This document shows positions 2,105-64,000 of a stretch of 64,000 bases of DNA, piece after piece. The notes beneath the pieces are model-generated. The model ran no database searches. It was not told where the DNA came from and saw only the letters and a list, made by a program, of their open reading frames with translations. The translations under genes were made by a program, and so were the position numbers. Position 1 is the stretch's first letter. Each line of letters opens with the position of its first letter. This stretch comes from Salegentibacter sp. R32 (GTDB taxonomy: Bacteria; Bacteroidota; Bacteroidia; Flavobacteriales; Flavobacteriaceae): assembly GCF_008692195.1 (NCBI RefSeq), contig NZ_RXOM01000054.1:146024-210023 (forward strand). Reading direction: 5' to 3'.

Positions 2105-2214
2105 TGGGTGTTTCCCTTCGGGTCGGGCTACCTGACTGCCGACAGGCAGGTTCGTTACAATTCCTCTTTTCGCTTTGCTCCATTGCGGGATTTTCACTGC
2201 TATCCCTAACACAA
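2105..2214. repeat. Divergent copy of the GCGTT...AACGC intergenic element
   Basis: The ends GTGTTTCCC and CCCTAACACA, an early CCC-TTC-GGG hairpin, and the stretch CACTGCTATC resemble the elements at 63461-63559 and 50408-50508 (reverse orientation). An internal palindrome with CTGCC/GGCAG lies near 2134-2150. The element ends 2 nt from the stop codon of the M1 peptidase. It is the most diverged of the three copies. Confidence 0.55.
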
Positions 2215-2216
2215 AA

Positions 2217-4079
2217 TTATTTTTCCCAAACATTATTGCTACGATCCACATCTGCCATTAAACCACTTGGGTCAATTTCAATTTTCTTGATGTTTTCTTT
2301 TGCAGCATATAACTTTACGGTGTGTGTTGGGTAAGCCCAAGCCCAAGAACCAGAATTTTCCATATTTTCTTTTTCCCAATGCATCATCGTAAGCGGAATG
2401 TACATCATCGTTTTTTCTTCTTTTTCACCATCGGTAAAAGTTATTTCCACTTCAATTGGCATCGGCATTTGTCCGATTCTTTCTAAAACTATTTCTGATC
2501 CATTTCCGTCTGCTTCAACAGATTTAATGCTGTAATCTACCGTGTTGGTTGTTCTCGTCCAATCATTGAGGTACCAGCTTAATTCTGCTCCGCTAACTTT
2601 TTCAGCAACACGAATAAAATCGTTTGGTGTTGGGTGTTTAAATTTCCACTCTTGGTAATAACGCTTTAAGGTTTTTGCCAGATTTTCTTCACCAATTACA
2701 TAACCTAATTGCGCTAAGAAAACAGAACCTTTGCTATAAGCACCAATTCCGTAATTCATATTGGTTTGATAACGATCGGCGTGTGTAGAAAGCGGTTGTT
2801 CTTGCCCAGAGTTGGCTAAATAATTATAACCACGGTAAGAACCACTTAACGGGTTGGGGTTGTTTTTATTTAAAATTTCATTTTCAGCTAAACTAGAAAT
2901 GTAGGTGGTAAAACCTTCATCCATCCATTCGTGTTGAGATTCGTTGGTCGCTAAAATAAACTGAAACCAAGAATGTGCAAATTCGTGAGCGGTAACGCCG
3001 ACTAAACTTTCGTAACTTCTTTCACCGGTAATTAAGGTACACATTCCATATTCCATACCGCCGTCACCACCTTGGATCACAGAATATTGATCGTAAGGAT
3101 ATTGACCAATATGCTCGTTGTAATACGCTAATAATTCAGCAGTTTTTGGCTGAAGTTTCTTCCAGTTCTCTTTAATTTCATCATTATCTTTATATAAGAA
3201 ATGAAGTGTCGTACCGTCTTCTGCTTTTAATTTATCGTGAATAAAATCTGGATCGGCAGCCCACGTAAAATCGTGTACATTTGGCGCGTTAAAATGCCAG
3301 GTGATCTTTTTGCCTTTACGTTTTACTTTTTGACCTTCTTCTTGGTAACCGTAACCAATTTCTTCCGGATTTTGTAAATAACCCGTTCCGCCTAAAATAT
3401 AATCTTTATCGATGGTGATTTTTACATCAAAATCTCCCCAAACGCCGTGAAATTCACGACCAATGTAAGGATCTGCGTGCCAACCTTCAAAGTCGTATTC
3501 TGCTAATTTTGGGTACCATTGTGTCATTGAAAGTGCTACACCTTCCGCATTATTTCTACCCGAACGTCTTATTTGTACCGGTACTTGACCTTCAAACTCC
3601 ATTTCGAAAGTGGTAGATTCTCCCGGGAGTAAAGCTTCGTGTAATTCAACTTCTAAAATAGTTCCTACGGTTTCATACTTTAATTTATTACCGTCTTGTT
3701 CTAAAGATTTTACCTTTAGATAGCCAATTTCATCTTCGTTAAGCTTGCTAATTCTACTTTCAAATTCAGGATTTTCACGTGTTCCTAAATTATTCACCAT
3801 TCTGCCATCGGGATCTTGAATGCTTTGTAAACGAGCGTCCATTTGGCTTCCCGGCTGAAAAGCATTAAAAAACAAATGATAAAATACTTTGGTTAAGGTA
3901 TCTGGAGAATTATTGGTATAAGTAAGTTCTTGTTCCCCATCGTATTGGTAGTTTTTTACATTCATGGCTACCTCCATTTTGTAATCTACCTTTTGTTGCC
4001 AATAGCCAGATCGTTGTTGTGCGGTAATTGCTCCCGTCACTAAAAGAGAAAACAATAAACTTTGAAGTTTAAATTTCAT
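2217..4079 (-). CDS. Secreted M1 family (aminopeptidase N-like) metallopeptidase
   Basis: This 620-aa protein starts with a signal peptide (cleavage near residue 20, ITA|QQ). The gluzincin zinc motif HEFAH is at 365-369, with the third ligand E388 in WMDEGF. GGMEYG at 340-345 corresponds to the GxMEN substrate-recognition motif of M1 enzymes. These residues support an active zinc exopeptidase that trims peptides in the periplasm or at the surface. It is a single gene with a terminator downstream. The length is shorter than four-domain PepN, as in many Bacteroidota secreted M1 proteins. The exact substrate is unknown. Confidence 0.9.
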   Translation of the reverse strand: MKFKLQSLLFSLLVTGAITAQQRSGYWQQKVDYKMEVAMNVKNYQYDGEQELTYTNNSPDTLTKVFYHLFFNAFQPGSQMDARLQSIQDPDGRMVNNLGTRENPEFESRISKLNEDEIGYLKVKSLEQDGNKLKYETVGTILEVELHEALLPGESTTFEMEFEGQVPVQIRRSGRNNAEGVALSMTQWYPKLAEYDFEGWHADPYIGREFHGVWGDFDVKITIDKDYILGGTGYLQNPEEIGYGYQEEGQKVKRKGKKITWHFNAPNVHDFTWAADPDFIHDKLKAEDGTTLHFLYKDNDEIKENWKKLQPKTAELLAYYNEHIGQYPYDQYSVIQGGDGGMEYGMCTLITGERSYESLVGVTAHEFAHSWFQFILATNESQHEWMDEGFTTYISSLAENEILNKNNPNPLSGSYRGYNYLANSGQEQPLSTHADRYQTNMNYGIGAYSKGSVFLAQLGYVIGEENLAKTLKRYYQEWKFKHPTPNDFIRVAEKVSGAELSWYLNDWTRTTNTVDYSIKSVEADGNGSEIVLERIGQMPMPIEVEITFTDGEKEEKTMMYIPLTMMHWEKENMENSGSWAWAYPTHTVKLYAAKENIKKIEIDPSGLMADVDRSNNVWEK

Positions 4080-9961: not shown

Positions 9962-10249
9962 ATGAAAAAATTTACTTTATTAACACTTGCTATTGGTCTT
10001 TTCGCATTTACTTCTTGTTCCAGTGATGATGATGGTGGAGATGGTGGAAATTCAGATTGTGTGGTATGTTCTATGTCAATGGAAGGAAATAGTATCGATA
10101 CTGAATATTGCGATAATGGAGATGGTACTATGACAGTAACTGTAAGATCAGGTGGCCAAGAAGTTTCTCAAGACCAAGATATTCCAGAGGGTACTACTTT
10201 TGATGAAATAATCTCAGAAATGGAACAAAATGGGGAAAATTGTAATTAA
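9962..10249 (+). CDS. Small acidic lipoprotein of unknown function
   Basis: The 95-aa product has a lipoprotein signal peptide with lipobox FTSC (Cys19), followed by an SSDDDGGDGG stretch. That stretch resembles the acidic spacer seen after the lipid Cys in Bacteroidota surface lipoproteins. The mature part has four Cys (CVVC, YC and a C-terminal NC), which could form disulfides outside the inner membrane. I recognise no domain. It stands alone with its own terminator 23 nt after the stop. Confidence 0.8.
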   Translation: MKKFTLLTLAIGLFAFTSCSSDDDGGDGGNSDCVVCSMSMEGNSIDTEYCDNGDGTMTVTVRSGGQEVSQDQDIPEGTTFDEIISEMEQNGENCN

Positions 10250-10271
10250 TCGCAACGCAAAAACTAGAACC

Positions 10272-10305
10272 AAAAAAGCCTCTGAAATTTTCAGAGGCTT
10301 TTTTA
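10272..10305. terminator. Bidirectional intrinsic terminator between lipoprotein gene and lepA
   Basis: The stem GCCTCTGA / TCAGAGGC, extended by A-T pairs, has a run of T on each strand. It sits between two convergent genes and can serve both. Confidence 0.85.
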
Positions 10306-10308
10306 TAT

Positions 10309-12105
10309 CTAATCATTTAATTTTAAAACGGCCATAAAGGCTTCTTGCGGTATTTCTACATTTCCTACGGCACGCATCCTTTTCTTCCCTTTTTTCTGTT
10401 TTTCCAAAAGTTTACGCTTACGGGAAATATCACCTCCATAACATTTTGCGGTTACATCTTTACGAAGGGCTTTTACGGTTTCCCGGGCAATAATTTTGGC
10501 TCCGATTGCAGCTTGAATGGGAATATCGAATTGTTGTCTGGGAATTAATTCCTTTAATTTTTCACACATTTTCTTCCCAATATCATACGCATTATCTACG
10601 TGTAACAAGGCTGAAAGTGCATCAACCGTATTTCCGTTGAGAAGCACATCTACTTTTACCAATTTAGAAGGTTTCATTCCAATAGGAGCGTAATCAAAGG
10701 AAGCGTAACCTTTAGAAACGGTTTTTAAACGATCGTAAAAATCGAAAACAATTTCAGCTAAAGGCATATTAAAACTAAGTTCTACCCTTTCTGGGGTTAA
10801 GTAAGTTTGATTCACGATTTCCCCGCGTTTTTCAATACAAAGCGACATAACCGGTCCTACAAAATCGGCTTTTGTAATAATAGTGGCTTTAATAAAAGGT
10901 TCTTCTACCCGGTCTAATTTGGAAGGTTCCGGTAAGTCTGAGGGGTTGTTGACCAGAACGAGTTCATCGGGTTCTTTATTGGTGTAAGCGTAATACGATA
11001 CGTTGGGTACGGTGGTAATTACCGTCATATCAAACTCACGCTCTAAGCGTTCTTGTATAATTTCTAGATGCAGCATACCTAAAAATCCACAACGGAAACC
11101 AAAACCTAAAGCGGCAGAACTTTCCGGTTGAAAAACTAAAGAGGCATCATTTAACTGTAGTTTTTCCATACAGGAACGAAGCTCTTCGTAATCTTCAGTA
11201 TCTACGGGATAAATTCCGGCAAAAACCATGGGTTTTACATCTTCAAAACCTGCCACGGCTTCAGTAGTTGGATTTTCAGCATCGGTAATGGTATCTCCTA
11301 CTTTTACTTCACGGGCGTCTTTAATACCGGTTATTAAGTAACCTACATCTCCGGTTTTTATTTCTTTCTGCGGAAATTGTTTCAGTTTTAACGTACCCAC
11401 TTCATCTGCAGAATATTTTTTATTCGTGTTGACGAATTTAATTTGTTGTCCTTTTTTAATACTTCCGTTAATCACCCGAAAAAAGGTTTCAACTCCACGA
11501 AAAGGATTATAAACTGAGTCGAAAATAAGCGCTCTAAGTGGGGCGTCTGGTTTTCCTGTTGGAGCGGGAATGCGTTCAATAATGGCTTTTAAAATTTCTT
11601 CAATTCCTAGTCCGGTTTTGGCACTTGCGGGGATCACCTCAGAACGATCACATCCTAAAAGATCTACAATATCATCGGTTACTTCTTCCGGATTGGCGCT
11701 TGGTAAATCTACTTTATTAAGAACCGGGATAATTTCTAAGTCGTTCTCCAAGGCTAAATATAAGTTAGAAATAGTTTGGGCTTGTATACTTTGAGCCGCA
11801 TCAACGACGAGTAAAGCTCCTTCACAAGCGGCAATAGATCGTGAGACTTCATAAGAAAAATCTACGTGACCGGGAGTATCAATTAAATTAAGCACATATT
11901 CTTCTCCGTTATAAGGAAAATTCATTTGGATGGCGTGACTTTTAATGGTAATTCCACGTTCTCGTTCTAAATCCATACTATCAAGTAGTTGCTCTTGTTT
12001 TTCCCGTTCGGTTACAGAGCCGGTAAAGTCTAAGAGTCTGTCCGCCAGTGTGCTTTTACCGTGGTCTATATGTGCAATAATGCAAAAATTTCTAAAGTGC
12101 TTCAT
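10309..12105 (-). CDS. lepA: Elongation factor 4 (LepA), ribosome-associated GTPase
   Basis: The 598-aa protein has the translational GTPase P-loop AHIDHGKST (residues 11-19), the DTPGH and NKVD motifs, and the LepA-specific C-terminal domain with [19 protein letters not shown]4 acts on the ribosome and affects initiation and back-translocation under stress. Length matches the family. A TAnnTTTG box lies about 90 bp upstream on the minus strand. It is a single gene ending at a shared bidirectional terminator. Confidence 0.97.
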
Positions 12106-49272: not shown

Positions 49273-50370
49273 ATGAGTGAATCAGAGTTAATTTATTTGT
49301 TAGCACTGCAACGAATCCCAAATATTGGTGACGTTACGGCAAAAAAATTATTGCATCATTTTGGTTCTGCCAAGTCAATTTTTGAAATAAAGAAGTCAGA
49401 TATTATAGCGGTAGAAGGCATTGGAGAACGAACCGCAGCTTTGTTGGATTTTTCTACTTACGAAAGGGAGGTGATGCAAGAACTGGAATTTATAAATACA
49501 GCCGATATTAAGGTGAAATATTTTCAGAATAATGATTATCCGCAACGGCTCAAGCATTGCATTGATGCACCTATTTTACTTTTTGAAAAAGGAAATATAG
49601 ACCTTCAGCATAAAAAAATTATTAGTATTGTGGGAACGCGAAAAGCAACCACTCATGGAACTGCTTTTTGCGAGCAACTTATTGAAGATTTGGCTCCGTT
49701 AAACCCGGTAATTGTTTCGGGATTTGCTTACGGAATTGATATTTGTGCCCATAAATCAGCTTTGGCCAATAACTTACAGACCATAGGTTGTATGGCGCAT
49801 GGATTGAATCAAGTTTACCCAAAAGTGCATAAAAAATATGAAAGTGAAATCTTGAAAAATGGCGGTTTCCTTTCTGATTTTTGGAGTGACAAAACCTTTG
49901 ATCGAAAGAATTTTTTAAAGCGTAACCGAATTATTGCAGGAGTTAGCGAAGCTACCATCGTAATTGAAAGTGCTGAAAAAGGAGGTTCTTTAGTAACAGC
50001 AGATATTGCCAATTCTTACAATCGGGAAGTTTTTGCATTGCCGGGAAGACCTACAGATAGTTTAAGCAAAGGTTGTAATGAACTTATTAAGCACCAAAAA
50101 GCGCAAATGATTACTTCGGCTGCCGATTTGATTTTCTATTTGGGTTGGGAGTTAGAAGAACAACCACCAAAACAAACCCAACTTTTTGTTGAGCTTTCCC
50201 CGGAAGAAGAAATAGTTTTAACCGAATTGAAAAATCTAGGCAAATCTGAATTGGATAATCTGGCGCTAGCTTGTGAAATGCCTACTTTTGAAATTACCAC
50301 CTATCTTCTAAATTTAGAATTAAATGGGTTGGTAAGACCATTACCTGGGAAAATGTTTGAAGCGATTTAA
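49273..50370 (+). CDS. dprA: DNA-processing protein A
   Basis: The 365-aa protein has an N-terminal helix-hairpin-helix region (about 10-60), the Rossmann-like DprA core (VGTRKATTHG, SGFAYGIDICAHK, RNRIIAGVSEATIVIES, FALPGRP) and a C-terminal winged-helix region (about 300-365). DprA loads RecA on incoming ssDNA in natural transformation. It is a single gene convergent with trpS. Confidence 0.95.
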   Translation: MSESELIYLLALQRIPNIGDVTAKKLLHHFGSAKSIFEIKKSDIIAVEGIGERTAALLDFSTYEREVMQELEFINTADIKVKYFQNNDYPQRLKHCIDAPILLFEKGNIDLQHKKIISIVGTRKATTHGTAFCEQLIEDLAPLNPVIVSGFAYGIDICAHKSALANNLQTIGCMAHGLNQVYPKVHKKYESEILKNGGFLSDFWSDKTFDRKNFLKRNRIIAGVSEATIVIESAEKGGSLVTADIANSYNREVFALPGRPTDSLSKGCNELIKHQKAQMITSAADLIFYLGWELEEQPPKQTQLFVELSPEEEIVLTELKNLGKSELDNLALACEMPTFEITTYLLNLELNGLVRPLPGKMFEAI

Positions 50371-50407
50371 TATTTTAAAAACCCAAATGGAATTGGAATA
50401 GTAGTTT

Positions 50408-50508
50408 GCGTTAGCGATTGAACGTTGTGTTTGAGCTCTTTTTTGTTTTTGGAAAAATAAAAAAAGCGAGTAGTGAAAGCGCGGCGGGCTTTTTAGCCCG
50501 CAACGCCC
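50408..50508. repeat. Structured GCGTT...AACGC intergenic element, copy 2
   Basis: In reverse orientation this element reads GCGTT, then a 7-bp hairpin (GCGGGCT / AGCCCGC at 50484-50501), CCGCGCT, a T-rich/A-rich second hairpin, and ATCGCTAACGC. The order matches copy 3 (63461-63559), but the hairpin sequences differ while pairing is kept. It fills the gap between the dprA and trpS stop codons, ending 5 nt from the latter. Confidence 0.7.
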
Positions 50509-50513
50509 AAATT

Positions 50514-51482
50514 TTAATATCCCAATTTAGTTCTCACCCTGCTCAATACTTCATTAGCTACTTTTCTAGCTTTTTCAGCTCCTTTTTCTAGAGCAGCATC
50601 AACTTCTTCAAGGTTATTCATATAATAATGATAGGCTTCCCTTTCTTTAGCATATTTCTCCACTAAAAGTTCATATAAAGCCTGTTTAGCATGACCGTAA
50701 CCGTAATTGCCACCCAAGTAATTTTTACGCATTTCGGCAATTTGCTCTTCTGAACCTATTACTTTATATAGATTGAAAACATTACAAGTGTCTGGGTCTT
50801 TTGGTTCTTCAAGCGGAGTGCTATCGGTTTGAATGCCCATGACTTGTTTTCTCAATTTTTTATCGGGTAAAAACAAATTGATATAGTTATCACGGGACTT
50901 ACTCATTTTCTCTCCGTCTGTTCCGGGAACATACTTCGTGTTTTCTTCGGTTTTGGCTTTTGGAAGTACAAAAGTTTCTCCCATTTGTGCATGAAAACGG
51001 GAAGCTACATCGCGTGTCATTTCAATATGTTGTAATTGATCTTTTCCTACTGGGACAAATTCAGCATCATACAAAAGTATATCGGCCGCCATTAACATCG
51101 GGTAGGTGAAAAGGCCCGAGTTCACATCAGCTAACCGGTCGGCTTTATCTTTAAATGAATGGGCCAAGGTTAATCGCTGATAAGGGAAAAAGCAACTTAA
51201 ATACCAAGTAAGTTCTGTTACTTGTGGTATATCGCTTTGTCTGTAAAAAACGGTTTTTTCAATATCTAAACCAAAAGCCAGCCAAGTTGCAGCCACAGAA
51301 TAGGTGTTTTCTCTTAAGGTTGGAGCATCTTTTATTTGTGTAAGCGTATGTAAATTCGCAATAAATAAAAAAGATTCGTTGTTAGAATCGTTTGCCATGT
51401 TAATGGCAGGAATAATGGCTCCTAGTAAGTTTCCTAAATGTGGGGTTCCTGTGCTTTGGATCCCAGTTAGTATTCTAGACAT
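50514..51482 (-). CDS. trpS: Tryptophan-tRNA ligase
   Basis: The 322-aa class I synthetase has the HIGH-like motif PHLGN (14-18) and KMSKS in GEKMSKSRD near 195. Bacterial TrpRS features include the AADILLYDAEFVPVG loop. It charges tRNA-Trp. Length is typical. It is a single gene, divergent from plsC. Confidence 0.96.
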   Translation of the reverse strand: MSRILTGIQSTGTPHLGNLLGAIIPAINMANDSNNESFLFIANLHTLTQIKDAPTLRENTYSVAATWLAFGLDIEKTVFYRQSDIPQVTELTWYLSCFFPYQRLTLAHSFKDKADRLADVNSGLFTYPMLMAADILLYDAEFVPVGKDQLQHIEMTRDVASRFHAQMGETFVLPKAKTEENTKYVPGTDGEKMSKSRDNYINLFLPDKKLRKQVMGIQTDSTPLEEPKDPDTCNVFNLYKVIGSEEQIAEMRKNYLGGNYGYGHAKQALYELLVEKYAKEREAYHYYMNNLEEVDAALEKGAEKARKVANEVLSRVRTKLGY

Positions 51483-62087: not shown

Positions 62088-62789
62088 ATGATTAAAAAAA
62101 CGGTGAATAACGTTCAAGAAGCCATTGAAGGTGTTCAAGACGGGATGACGTTTATGTTAGGGGGTTTTGGCCTCTGCGGAATTCCGGAAAACGCCATCAC
62201 AGCACTTGTTCAAAAAAATATACGAGACATCACCTGTATTTCTAACAATGCAGGCGTCGACGATTTTGGTTTGGGTTTATTACTTCAGAAAAAACAAATC
62301 AAAAAAATGATCTCTTCTTACGTAGGTGAAAATGCAGAATTCGAACGCCAGATGCTTAGCGAAGAATTGGAGGTAGAATTAACTCCACAAGGTACTTTAG
62401 CAGCCAAATGTCAAGCCGCGCAACAAGGTTTTCCTGCCATTTATACACCTGCCGGTTACGGAACCGAAGTTTCCATGGGGAAAGAAACCCGTGAATTTGA
62501 TGGGAAAATGTATGTGCTGGAAGAAGCCTATAAAGCAGATTTTGCTTTTGTAAAAGCCTGGAAGGGTGACGAAGCAGGAAACCTTATTTTTAAAGGAACC
62601 GCCAGAAACTTTAACCCGTGTATGTGTGGAGCTGCACAAGTAACTGTAGTTGAAGTAGAAGAACTAGTTCCAGCAGGAGAATTAGACCCTAATCAAATCC
62701 ACATTCCCGGGATTTTTGTACAACGAATTTTCCAAGGGAAAGATTACGAAAAGCGAATTGAACAACGAACCGTTAGACCAAAAAATTAA
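62088..62789 (+). CDS. scoA: Succinyl-CoA:3-ketoacid CoA transferase, subunit A
   Basis: The 233-aa protein has the CoA-transferase family I alpha motif [10 protein letters not shown] (26-35) and the ISNNAG loop. With subunit B it moves CoA from succinyl-CoA to acetoacetate in ketone body or butanoate metabolism. scoB follows after 4 nt. Confidence 0.93.
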
Positions 62790-62793
62790 ACAA

Positions 62794-63450
62794 ATGGCTT
62801 TAGATAAAAACGGAATAGCACAACGCATCGCCAAAGAAGTAAAAGATGGCTATTATGTAAACTTAGGAATTGGGATTCCCACATTAGTGGCCAACTTTGT
62901 GCGTGACGATATAGAAGTAGAATTTCAGAGTGAAAACGGTATTTTAGGAATGGGCCCTTTTCCTGTTGAAGGAACCGAAGATGCCGATTTAATTAATGCG
63001 GGAAAACAAACCATCACCGCTTTGCCCGGTGCCAGTTTTTTCGATTCTGCCACCAGTTTTGGGATGATTCGCGGCAAACACGTAGATTTAACCATTCTCG
63101 GCGCAATGGAAGTAGCCGAAAACGGAGACATTGCCAATTGGAAAATTCCCGGTAAAATGGTAAAAGGAATGGGTGGCGCGATGGATCTGGTGGCTTCCGC
63201 AGAAAATATCATCGTAGCCATGATGCACACCAACAAAGCCGGAGCTTCCAAACTATTAAAAAAATGTACACTACCTTTAACCGGCGTAGGTTGTGTGACT
63301 AAAATAGTCACCAATCTTGCCGTTATTGAAGTTACTGAAGATGGTTTTAAACTTATCGAGCGAGCTCCGGGCGTAAGCGTAGAAGAAATTGAAAAAGCAA
63401 CCGAAGGAAAACTCGTTGTAGAAGGCGATATTCCAGAAATGGTTTTATAA
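62794..63450 (+). CDS. scoB: Succinyl-CoA:3-ketoacid CoA transferase, subunit B
   Basis: The protein (218 aa from ATG) starts [16 protein letters not shown] and has the catalytic Glu in [10 protein letters not shown] and the NLGIGIPT loop. It completes the CoA-transferase heterodimer. An ATG at 62716 would overlap scoA by 74 nt with unrelated sequence and is rejected. A structured repeat starts 10 nt after its stop. Confidence 0.94.
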
Positions 63451-63460
63451 AATATTGATG

Positions 63461-63559
63461 GCGTTTCCCGATTGGAAAAATCGGGACCGCGCTATCCGTT
63501 AAATCTTTTTTTGCCACTTATCAAAGCAAAAAAAGGATACCACTCCTATCGCTAACGCA
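63461..63559. repeat. Structured GCGTT...AACGC intergenic element, copy 3
   Basis: The element has ends GCGTT/AACGC, a first hairpin TCCCGAT/ATCGGGA (63466-63472 with 63480-63486), CCGCGCT, and a second perfect hairpin CTTTTTTTGC/GCAAAAAAAG. It closes with ATCGCTAACGC. The layout equals copy 2 at 50408-50508 in reverse orientation; copy 1 at 2105-2214 is more diverged. Confidence 0.7.
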
Positions 63560-63578
63560 TTTTTGAATTGAAATTATA

Positions 63579-63628: not shown

Positions 63629-64000
63629 TATTCTAAGGTTTGTCCAAATTTTTATGCTGCAAATTTAAAGGTTTCCACATAGGGTGTTTGCCTTTTGGCC
63701 ACAGCAAAAATTCTGCTAACAATTTTGTTTCTAATGATGTTGAGTGTTGACATTTTGTTTTTTCCTTCTTTTAATCGTTCATTGTAATAAATTTTTAATT
63801 GTGAATCATGTAAAATAGCTGTTGCGGCAGCTGATGACAGAATAGTTTTTAAGTCTCTATTACCTAAAACACTTATTCTTGTCCTGCCCCTGTAACTCGT
63901 TCCAGAACTATGCTCAAAAGGCGCAATACCAGCATAACATGCAAATTTCCGCCAGTTCTGGAATGACTTAAAATTATTGGTATGCGCTATCATTGTTGCA
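63629..64000 (-). mobile_element. IS110-family insertion sequence, right end inside window
   Basis: The transposase gene ends 23 nt before the point where the REP-like unit stops matching (about 63629), so the element's end is placed there. The rest of the element lies beyond the window. The short non-coding end fits the IS110 subgroup, which keeps its long non-coding end upstream of the gene. The exact boundary is inferred. Confidence 0.55.
63652..64000 (-). CDS. IS110-family transposase, C-terminal part (5' end outside window)
   Basis: The frame is open to the right window edge; the visible 115 residues hold the C-terminal transposase_20-type domain of IS110 proteins: FACYAGIAPFEHSSGTSYRG, RISVLGNRDLKTILSSAAA, and a basic helical tail. 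The Ser residues in HSSGTS are candidates for the family's catalytic serine. The Met at 63993 is internal (the codons upstream read A-T), so it is not the start. Whether the gene is intact cannot be judged. Confidence 0.88.
   Translation of the reverse strand, partial: ATMIAHTNNFKSFQNWRKFACYAGIAPFEHSSGTSYRGRTRISVLGNRDLKTILSSAAATAILHDSQLKIYYNERLKEGKNKMSTLNIIRNKIVSRIFAVAKRQTPYVETFKFAA

Follow-up and report, generated by a model that had tools for sequence, protein, structure and literature searches.

Flavo-1 as a candidate core class of a dispersed hairpin element behind genes of Flavobacteriaceae

Introduction

A 64,000-nt stretch of flavobacterial DNA, hereafter the window, carries several copies of an element of about 100 bp close to the ends of genes, which raises the question of what this element is, how far it is spread and in what form it might act. 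A preliminary description, made from the window alone, had recognized copies at 50408 and 63461 and a diverged relative at 2105, and had proposed either structures at transcript 3′ ends or an element of the REP/RAYT type. Here, we describe the element throughout the genome, genus and family. Its core was already known as Flavo-1; new are the full anatomy, a second class of core and the finding that cores are exchanged while their sites stay fixed. Judged by DprA protein identity (the window DprA shares 93% identity with its M. oceanica counterpart), the genus of the window genome is Mesonia.

Results

Three window copies share a frame and differ in their cores

The elements, their parts (read from the sequence) and the flanking genes (with Pfam matches) are as follows; R1 denotes the model built from alignment A1, described below.

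50407..50509, + strand: complete element with a class 2 core, between the convergent dprA and trpS-like genes; no Rfam match at the cut-off
50408..50412, + strand: P1 5′ arm GCGTT, with its partner AACGC at 50502–50506
50484..50501, + strand: P3 side hairpin GCGGGC...GCCCGC, the hairpin 1 of the preliminary description
50502..50506, + strand: P1 3′ arm AACGC
63458..63559, − strand: complete element with a class 1 (Flavo-1) core; R1 81.5 bits (training member)
63466..63486, − strand: P3 side hairpin TCCCGAT...ATCGGGA, largely beyond the Rfam match
63481..63572, − strand: Rfam RF01705 Flavo-1 match, 53.2 bits (cut-off 42)
2105..2213, − strand: complete element with a class 3 core; R1 42.9 bits (training member)
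49273..50370, + strand: dprA, flanking gene (DNA_processg_A)
50514..51482, − strand: trpS-like aminoacyl-tRNA synthetase gene, flanking (tRNA-synt_1b); beyond this match, we take it to encode TrpS
62716..63450, + strand: CoA-transferase subunit gene, flanking (CoA_trans)
2217..4079, − strand: M1 peptidase gene, flanking (Peptidase_M1)

The copies at 50407–50509 and 63458–63559 stand in opposite orientation, and their shared ends GCGTT/AACGC were confirmed, as was the earlier observation that hairpin 1 differs in its bases between them (GCGGGC/GCCCGC vs. TCCCGAT/ATCGGGA) and keeps its pairing. The suspected relative at 2105 proved to be a third copy built on the same plan, with the palindrome CCTGCCTGTCGGCAGTCAGG inside one arm. 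Common to all three is a frame built from the terminal stem P1, an inner stem and the side hairpin P3, within which lie three different inner cores. In Rfam-strand orientation, the plan reads TT, GCNNN (P1), A, an inner stem arm (GGG, GCG etc.) and AT ahead of the core, followed by AGC with the inner stem arm, G, the P3 hairpin, NNNGC (P1), CC and AAA. The flank consensus of 134 distinct elements has TT ahead of P1 and CCAAA behind, fading beyond. The reported closeness to stop codons holds for each copy: the 50408 copy lies 4 bases from the stop codon of the trpS-like gene (50514) and 36 from that of dprA (50370), the 63458 copy 7 bases from the CoA-transferase stop codon (63450) and the 2105 copy 3 bases from that of the M1 peptidase gene (2217).

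The class 2 model R2 scored the three copies at 88.1 (50408), 35.5 (63461) and 28 bits (2105); the 50408 copy, a member of both training sets, reached 48.1 bits with R1 and 13.8 bits with the Flavo-1 model (cut-off 42), which gave no match to the 2105 copy up to an E-value of 10. The 63461 copy is a Flavo-1 member, and the 50408 and 2105 copies are frame relatives, not members.

Other repeats occur next to or inside the elements. A fragment of an IS110-type transposase gene (63652–63993; Pfam Transposase_20) adjoins the 63461 copy. A palindrome of ~20 bases (of the CCTGCCTGCCGGCAGGCAGG type), which would protrude as an additional hairpin, is found in one arm of the 2105–2213 copy and of three other own-genome elements (L012, L019, L020), and elements without it also exist. 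Apical loops, as in eight elements (L002, L004, L005, L008–L010, L115, L117), often contain further dispersed repeats, of the CTTCGACTCCGCTCGAAGTGACA type and its relatives, which look as if hairpin tips were favored landing sites.

Pairing in the frame is kept by compensatory change

Alignment A1 comprised 43 full-length elements of the P3 type, namely 41 hand-picked from 81 for length and genome spread plus two window copies; 11 rows are own-genome copies (L011 being the 63461 copy of the window), and the structure was written down from one member. Of 1181 cells, 95.0% were paired, compared with 78.2% in shuffled and at most 52.9% in slid controls. Changes on both sides were seen in 22 of 28 pairs and amounted to 191 cells, with 10 changed on one side; shuffles gave 52.4 on average and slides at most 43, relatedness being left in place by the shuffles and kept by the slides. 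The compensatory change suspected from the window copies thus lies far above both controls. P1 was 99.5% paired, with variants such as GCGTT, GCGCA, GCATT, GCATA, GCAAA, GCAAG, GCGTG and GCGCC, each occurring with its complement. P3 was the weakest part (85.7%, inmost pair 51.5%), as it is too variable in length and sequence to be aligned.

G·U pairs are rare: they account for 10 of 1122 standard cells, compared with 11 of 230 cells in 11 tRNAs from the loci analyzed (p = 0.0002). Because a fold that has to form from either strand cannot use G·U, this scarcity fits use in either orientation or action as DNA, and it suits a DNA hairpin or strand-symmetric structure better than an RNA made from one strand.

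Copies are abundant in the genome and widespread in the family

Further genomic copies and a match in Rfam, both set as checks in the preliminary description, were found. R1 detected at least 40 places in the own genome (E ≤ 0.01, best 150 of 5237 candidates), and the Rfam model 22 places at E ≤ 1, 14 of them over the cut-off, including the 63461 copy. Across Flavobacteriaceae, RF01705 matched 77 of 120 genomes at E ≤ 0.001 (71 reaching the cut-off), and each genome with a match had between 1 and 36 or more of them, at most 36 candidates per genome being scored. Within the genus, 15 of 16 genomes matched Flavo-1 (0 to 39 matches each). On a restriction of Flavo-1 to Bacteroidetes, the sampling beyond the family consisted of 14 named control genomes, which gave no Flavo-1 match at E ≤ 0.001; at a loose E ≤ 1, five of the 14 did, none over the cut-off. 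A single class 1 query found no match in phage records, and two Myroides plasmid records (NZ_CP013691.1, NZ_CP102755.1) partly matched a class 1 element (78% covered, 81% identity). One genome, G033, contains a burst of look-alike copies (20 read, L055–L074), many of which have the P1 arms GGCTT/AAGC and a common apical loop.

At least four core classes occupy the frame

Sorting by core yielded four classes: class 1 (Flavo-1), GGCATCC-T6...A6-GATATA; class 2, as in the 50408 copy, GTTGRAGCTC-T5...A5-GCGA(C/G)T; class 3, the core of the 2105 copy; and class 4, GGAAATCC...GATTGTA. Among the loci fetched by then, a strict script counted 85, 24, 4 and 21 distinct elements of classes 1 to 4, a distribution tilted to class 1 since the loci had mostly been obtained through Flavo-1. 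Class 2 covaries in its own right: in alignment A2 (23 of the 24 elements, one long one being omitted), 97.2% of cells were paired and 17 of 24 pairs had changes on both sides, in 76 cells vs. 22.7 in shuffled and at most 20 in slid controls. R2 matched 76 of the 120 family genomes (E ≤ 1e-4, best 33 candidates per genome), a figure that may include other classes because the frame is common with class 1. The class 2 core was present in 28 of 29 newly obtained R2 loci, and on 20 of those 28, Rfam gave no family at its cut-off on the element.

The relation to Flavo-1 (RF01705) can now be specified. The Rfam model describes the core found in the 63461 copy and in 13 other own-genome copies, and the same inner pairs covary. 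It differs in being limited to 76 positions, so that in the P3 type the P3 hairpin and the greater part of P1 are left out; in running along the strand mostly not transcribed from neighboring genes; and in staying below its cut-off on the class 2 loci examined and on the 2105 copy. In Weinberg et al. 2010 (PMC2864571), Flavo-1 is marked 'y' for RNA and 'n' for cis-regulatory, and PMC9723704 reports no clue to its function. A full-text literature search, most subscription papers lying outside it, found no functional account of Flavo-1.

Elements follow stop codons and avoid divergent gaps

Gene neighbors were assigned by our own ORF rule, independent of annotation. The earlier claim of a dispersed element at gene 3′ ends stands, as copies often lie directly behind stop codons and divergent gaps are avoided (9 of 104 elements vs. 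31 of 127 control gaps of at least 100 bases, p = 0.0016). P3-type elements with both neighbors known (76 of 81) comprised 31 in tandem gaps with the upstream gene end at their 3′ side, 21 reversed, 17 convergent and 7 divergent cases; the 28 class 2 elements comprised 19, 6, 1 and 2, respectively. Among tandem cases, the element hence had its 3′ side towards the upstream gene end in 31 of 52 for the P3 type, which is mostly class 1 and shows a weak preference, in 19 of 25 for class 2, and in 25 of 26 for a compact type, a count that includes related genomes and whose cases are not independent.

This compact type, which lacks P3, made up 33 of 114 parsed elements and, judged by its consensus, is what the Rfam Flavo-1 model describes. 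A gene end faced its 3′ side in 31 of 33 cases, and for 23 of them the distance between the end of the inner stem and the stop codon was 17–21 nt. Twenty-six of the 33 compact copies lay behind five gene families (BLAST clusters, with Pfam run on one member each): sufD, homogentisate dioxygenase, znuA-like, chorismate synthase and phoH. The downstream gene can vary while the upstream gene stays. Elements also occur inside operons, namely leuA–leuCD–leuB and sufD–sufS.

The two strand indications point apart. Gene orientation favors the strand opposite to that of Rfam, and on the Rfam strand elements with G·T mismatches outnumber those with A·C (21 vs. 9, p = 0.043), a weak count perhaps biased by the Rfam search that selected the loci.

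Sites are retained while cores are exchanged

Of six collinear Mesonia regions obtained, three (L279, L280, L282) were compared, in which R1 sees eight elements, seven of them comparable; a strict frame pattern found five of the eight, and two of the remaining three became comparable after look-up. Read by eye, where the strict pattern had missed them, were site 1 of G125, site 3 of G122, site 5 of G000 (the own genome), and sites 6 and 7.

Site 1, leuA–leuC gap (Pfam): class 1 in G131, G000, G120 and G126; class 2 in G124 and G125
Site 2, leuD–leuB gap: class 1/class 2 split as at site 1
Site 3: class 2 in G122; class 1 in G131 and G124
Site 4: class 1, intact in five species and decayed in G125; G122 lacks the element and has a gap of 25 bases
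Site 5: class 1-like in G131 and G124; in G000, class 1 into which a palindrome is inserted; G125 has a decayed copy
Site 6 (L280:13250): class 1 in G131 and G124; no recognizable element in G125 or G120; G122 lacks it
Site 7 (L280:8861): class 2 in six of the six species in which the site was found

Across the seven orthologous sites, the element was intact in 31 of 37 species–site cases at flank identities of 73–97%. At three of the seven, the core belonged to class 1 or to class 2 depending on the species, while frame and orientation did not change. Over the compared region, G124 shares about 95% identity with G131 and 94.3% with G000. Its elements at sites 1 and 2 agree with those of these two genomes in P1 arms, P3 loop and orientation, but the core is different throughout. 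By eye, apical stems change independently of the frame. In G000, the apical stems at sites 1 and 2 closely resemble each other, a hint at conversion between copies. Region L279 contains, as a separate observation, an insertion of ~170 bases in G131 (10222–10396) that is not in G000 or G124 and has TCTAA flanks on each side.

A similar exchange is seen between genera. sufD is present in 118 of 120 family genomes, and the sufD–sufS gap harbors class 1 in six loci (Rfam on 18 of 30 sufD loci) and class 2 in six others (R2 on 30 of 30, none of the six in R2 training), with outer ends and orientation unchanged between the two sets; each of the 12 copies comes from a different genus. A pseudoknot GAAGCT/AGCTTC considered for the class 2 copies of this gap was rejected, as class 2 copies elsewhere lack the partner by eye.

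Turnover is seen at some sites. In 14 named dprA loci (four of Mesonia), R1 and R2 both failed to find a copy, so that the 50408 site is not conserved, and one of the seven Mesonia sites is empty or unrecognizable in three of five species.

Relation to REP elements and mobilization

REP/BIME elements (for REP and TnpAREP, see PMC6006769) resemble the present element in being short, dispersed, imperfect palindromes that lie behind genes or between cistrons, many per genome. Our element differs in its greater length, its three-way-junction frame with exchangeable cores, the extensive compensatory change in its end stem, and the absence of a detected RAYT association. A likeness to RAYT-mobilized REPINs (cf. 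PMC3116915) lies in within-genome families with bursts. In contrast to these, among the 24 genomes rich in the element (11 or more Flavo-1 matches), 15, including G033, had no Y1_Tnp at 1e-6, and 32 fetched Y1_Tnp loci (~3 kb each) held no element copy at E ≤ 0.1. The flank consensus of the 134 elements likewise showed none of the GTAG/CGTC tags at element ends that, according to PMC3733652, mark a REP/RAYT unit beside a palindrome of 20–40 nt. The REP/RAYT assignment put forward in the preliminary description is therefore not upheld. Y1_Tnp was found in 34 of 120 family genomes and is weakly associated with Flavo-1 (28 of 77 genomes with it vs. 6 of 43 without, p = 0.011). The own genome contains a RAYT-like Y1 gene (L025, C61:87454–87783) beside palindromes CTACAAGGTCTTCGAGACCTTGCAGG that by eye are unrelated to the element; it is likely a separate REP system.

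Alternatively, the element might be selfish, REP-like DNA, that is, hairpin DNA that spreads itself, lands harmlessly behind genes, needs its pairing for a mobilizing machinery and has no host function. The patchy copy number (in both the genus and the family), the look-alike burst in G033, the turnover at the 50408 and Mesonia sites and the scarcity of G·U would all agree with this. We nevertheless consider it somewhat unlikely, given that sites are kept in Mesonia and across genera, that the orientation bias of the compact type is strong, and that the search for a transposase association, made for the Y1 family only, was negative. A likeness to integron attC sites (GTTAGG/CCTAAC ends) was discarded on sequence comparison only, the arms being in opposite order.

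Terminators and small RNAs

Of the proposal that the copies are transcript 3′-end structures, the position fits, and a plain intrinsic terminator does not. In a terminator scan confined to the three window copies, none contained an intrinsic terminator (GC-containing stem with an immediate T-run). A bidirectional transcription terminator would explain the stop-proximal positions, the terminator-like hairpins seen by eye at the element's place in the dprA–trpS gap of two other Mesonia, and the short stem GGAT/ATCC that class 1 could form on the Rfam strand directly ahead of its T-run (by eye). It is very unlikely in view of the copies lying within the leu and suf operons and of a separate terminator-like hairpin (2061–2093) adjoining the 2105 copy; furthermore, separate terminators were about as frequent in gaps that carry an element (12 of 94) as in those that carry none (68 of 417), with no significant difference.

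Equally hard to sustain is an independent small RNA, the type that Rfam gives to Flavo-1: the weak G·T excess on the Rfam strand and one promoter-like match reading into the 63458 copy on that strand (63600–63573; 0.3 expected by chance, and not of the Bacteroidetes promoter type) speak for it, whereas genomes hold tens of copies, mostly with the other strand transcribed by the neighboring gene, and published transcriptomes are reported to show no consistent strand (PMC9723704).

Discussion

We tentatively propose that these elements form one dispersed Flavobacteriaceae family in which Flavo-1 would be one core class, and which may well act as a transcript hairpin behind stop codons, shielding or setting the upstream 3′ end. 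RNA is placed first as the acting molecule because of the orientation, the stop-codon spacing and the operon-internal sites. Several findings weigh against this reading, namely the weak orientation preference of P3-type class 1 copies, the rarity of G·U, the slight G·T excess on the strand that adjacent genes mostly leave untranscribed, and the turnover at the 50408 site and at one Mesonia site. An intercistronic REP of this kind is found between malE and malF of E. coli. The best reading of our analysis is accordingly worded by analogy: an intercistronic or 3′ UTR hairpin that would work like a REP. A covarying frame (P1, inner stem and P3) surrounds an exchangeable core; the folded transcript would be the working form, and, as in malE–malF, the hairpin may block 3′-to-5′ decay or fix a processed end. 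Gene conversion among dispersed copies, for which the conserved frame could provide the homology, might then replace the cores.

A bolder version, which we hold to be unlikely, is a two-part system in which a covarying landing frame behind stop codons, retained by the host, receives core cassettes (Flavo-1 and the 50408 class among them) that are swapped in place by a dedicated exchange process and not by chance gene conversion. If true, the family would possess a set of structured cores that can replace one another and share one job at transcript ends, and Flavo-1 would be a single allele of this set.

With the present analysis, Flavo-1, described in 2010, gains full-length boundaries and a preferred transcribed strand opposite to that of the Rfam model, as well as a sister core class that, on the loci examined, is beyond the reach of any Rfam model at its cut-off. 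Operon gaps in which two species with ~95% identical flanks differ in having core 1 or core 2 represent natural experiments, by which the role of the element becomes directly testable. For regulatory or repeat sequences, to evolve by exchanging a structured core while the frame around it stays fixed would be unusual.
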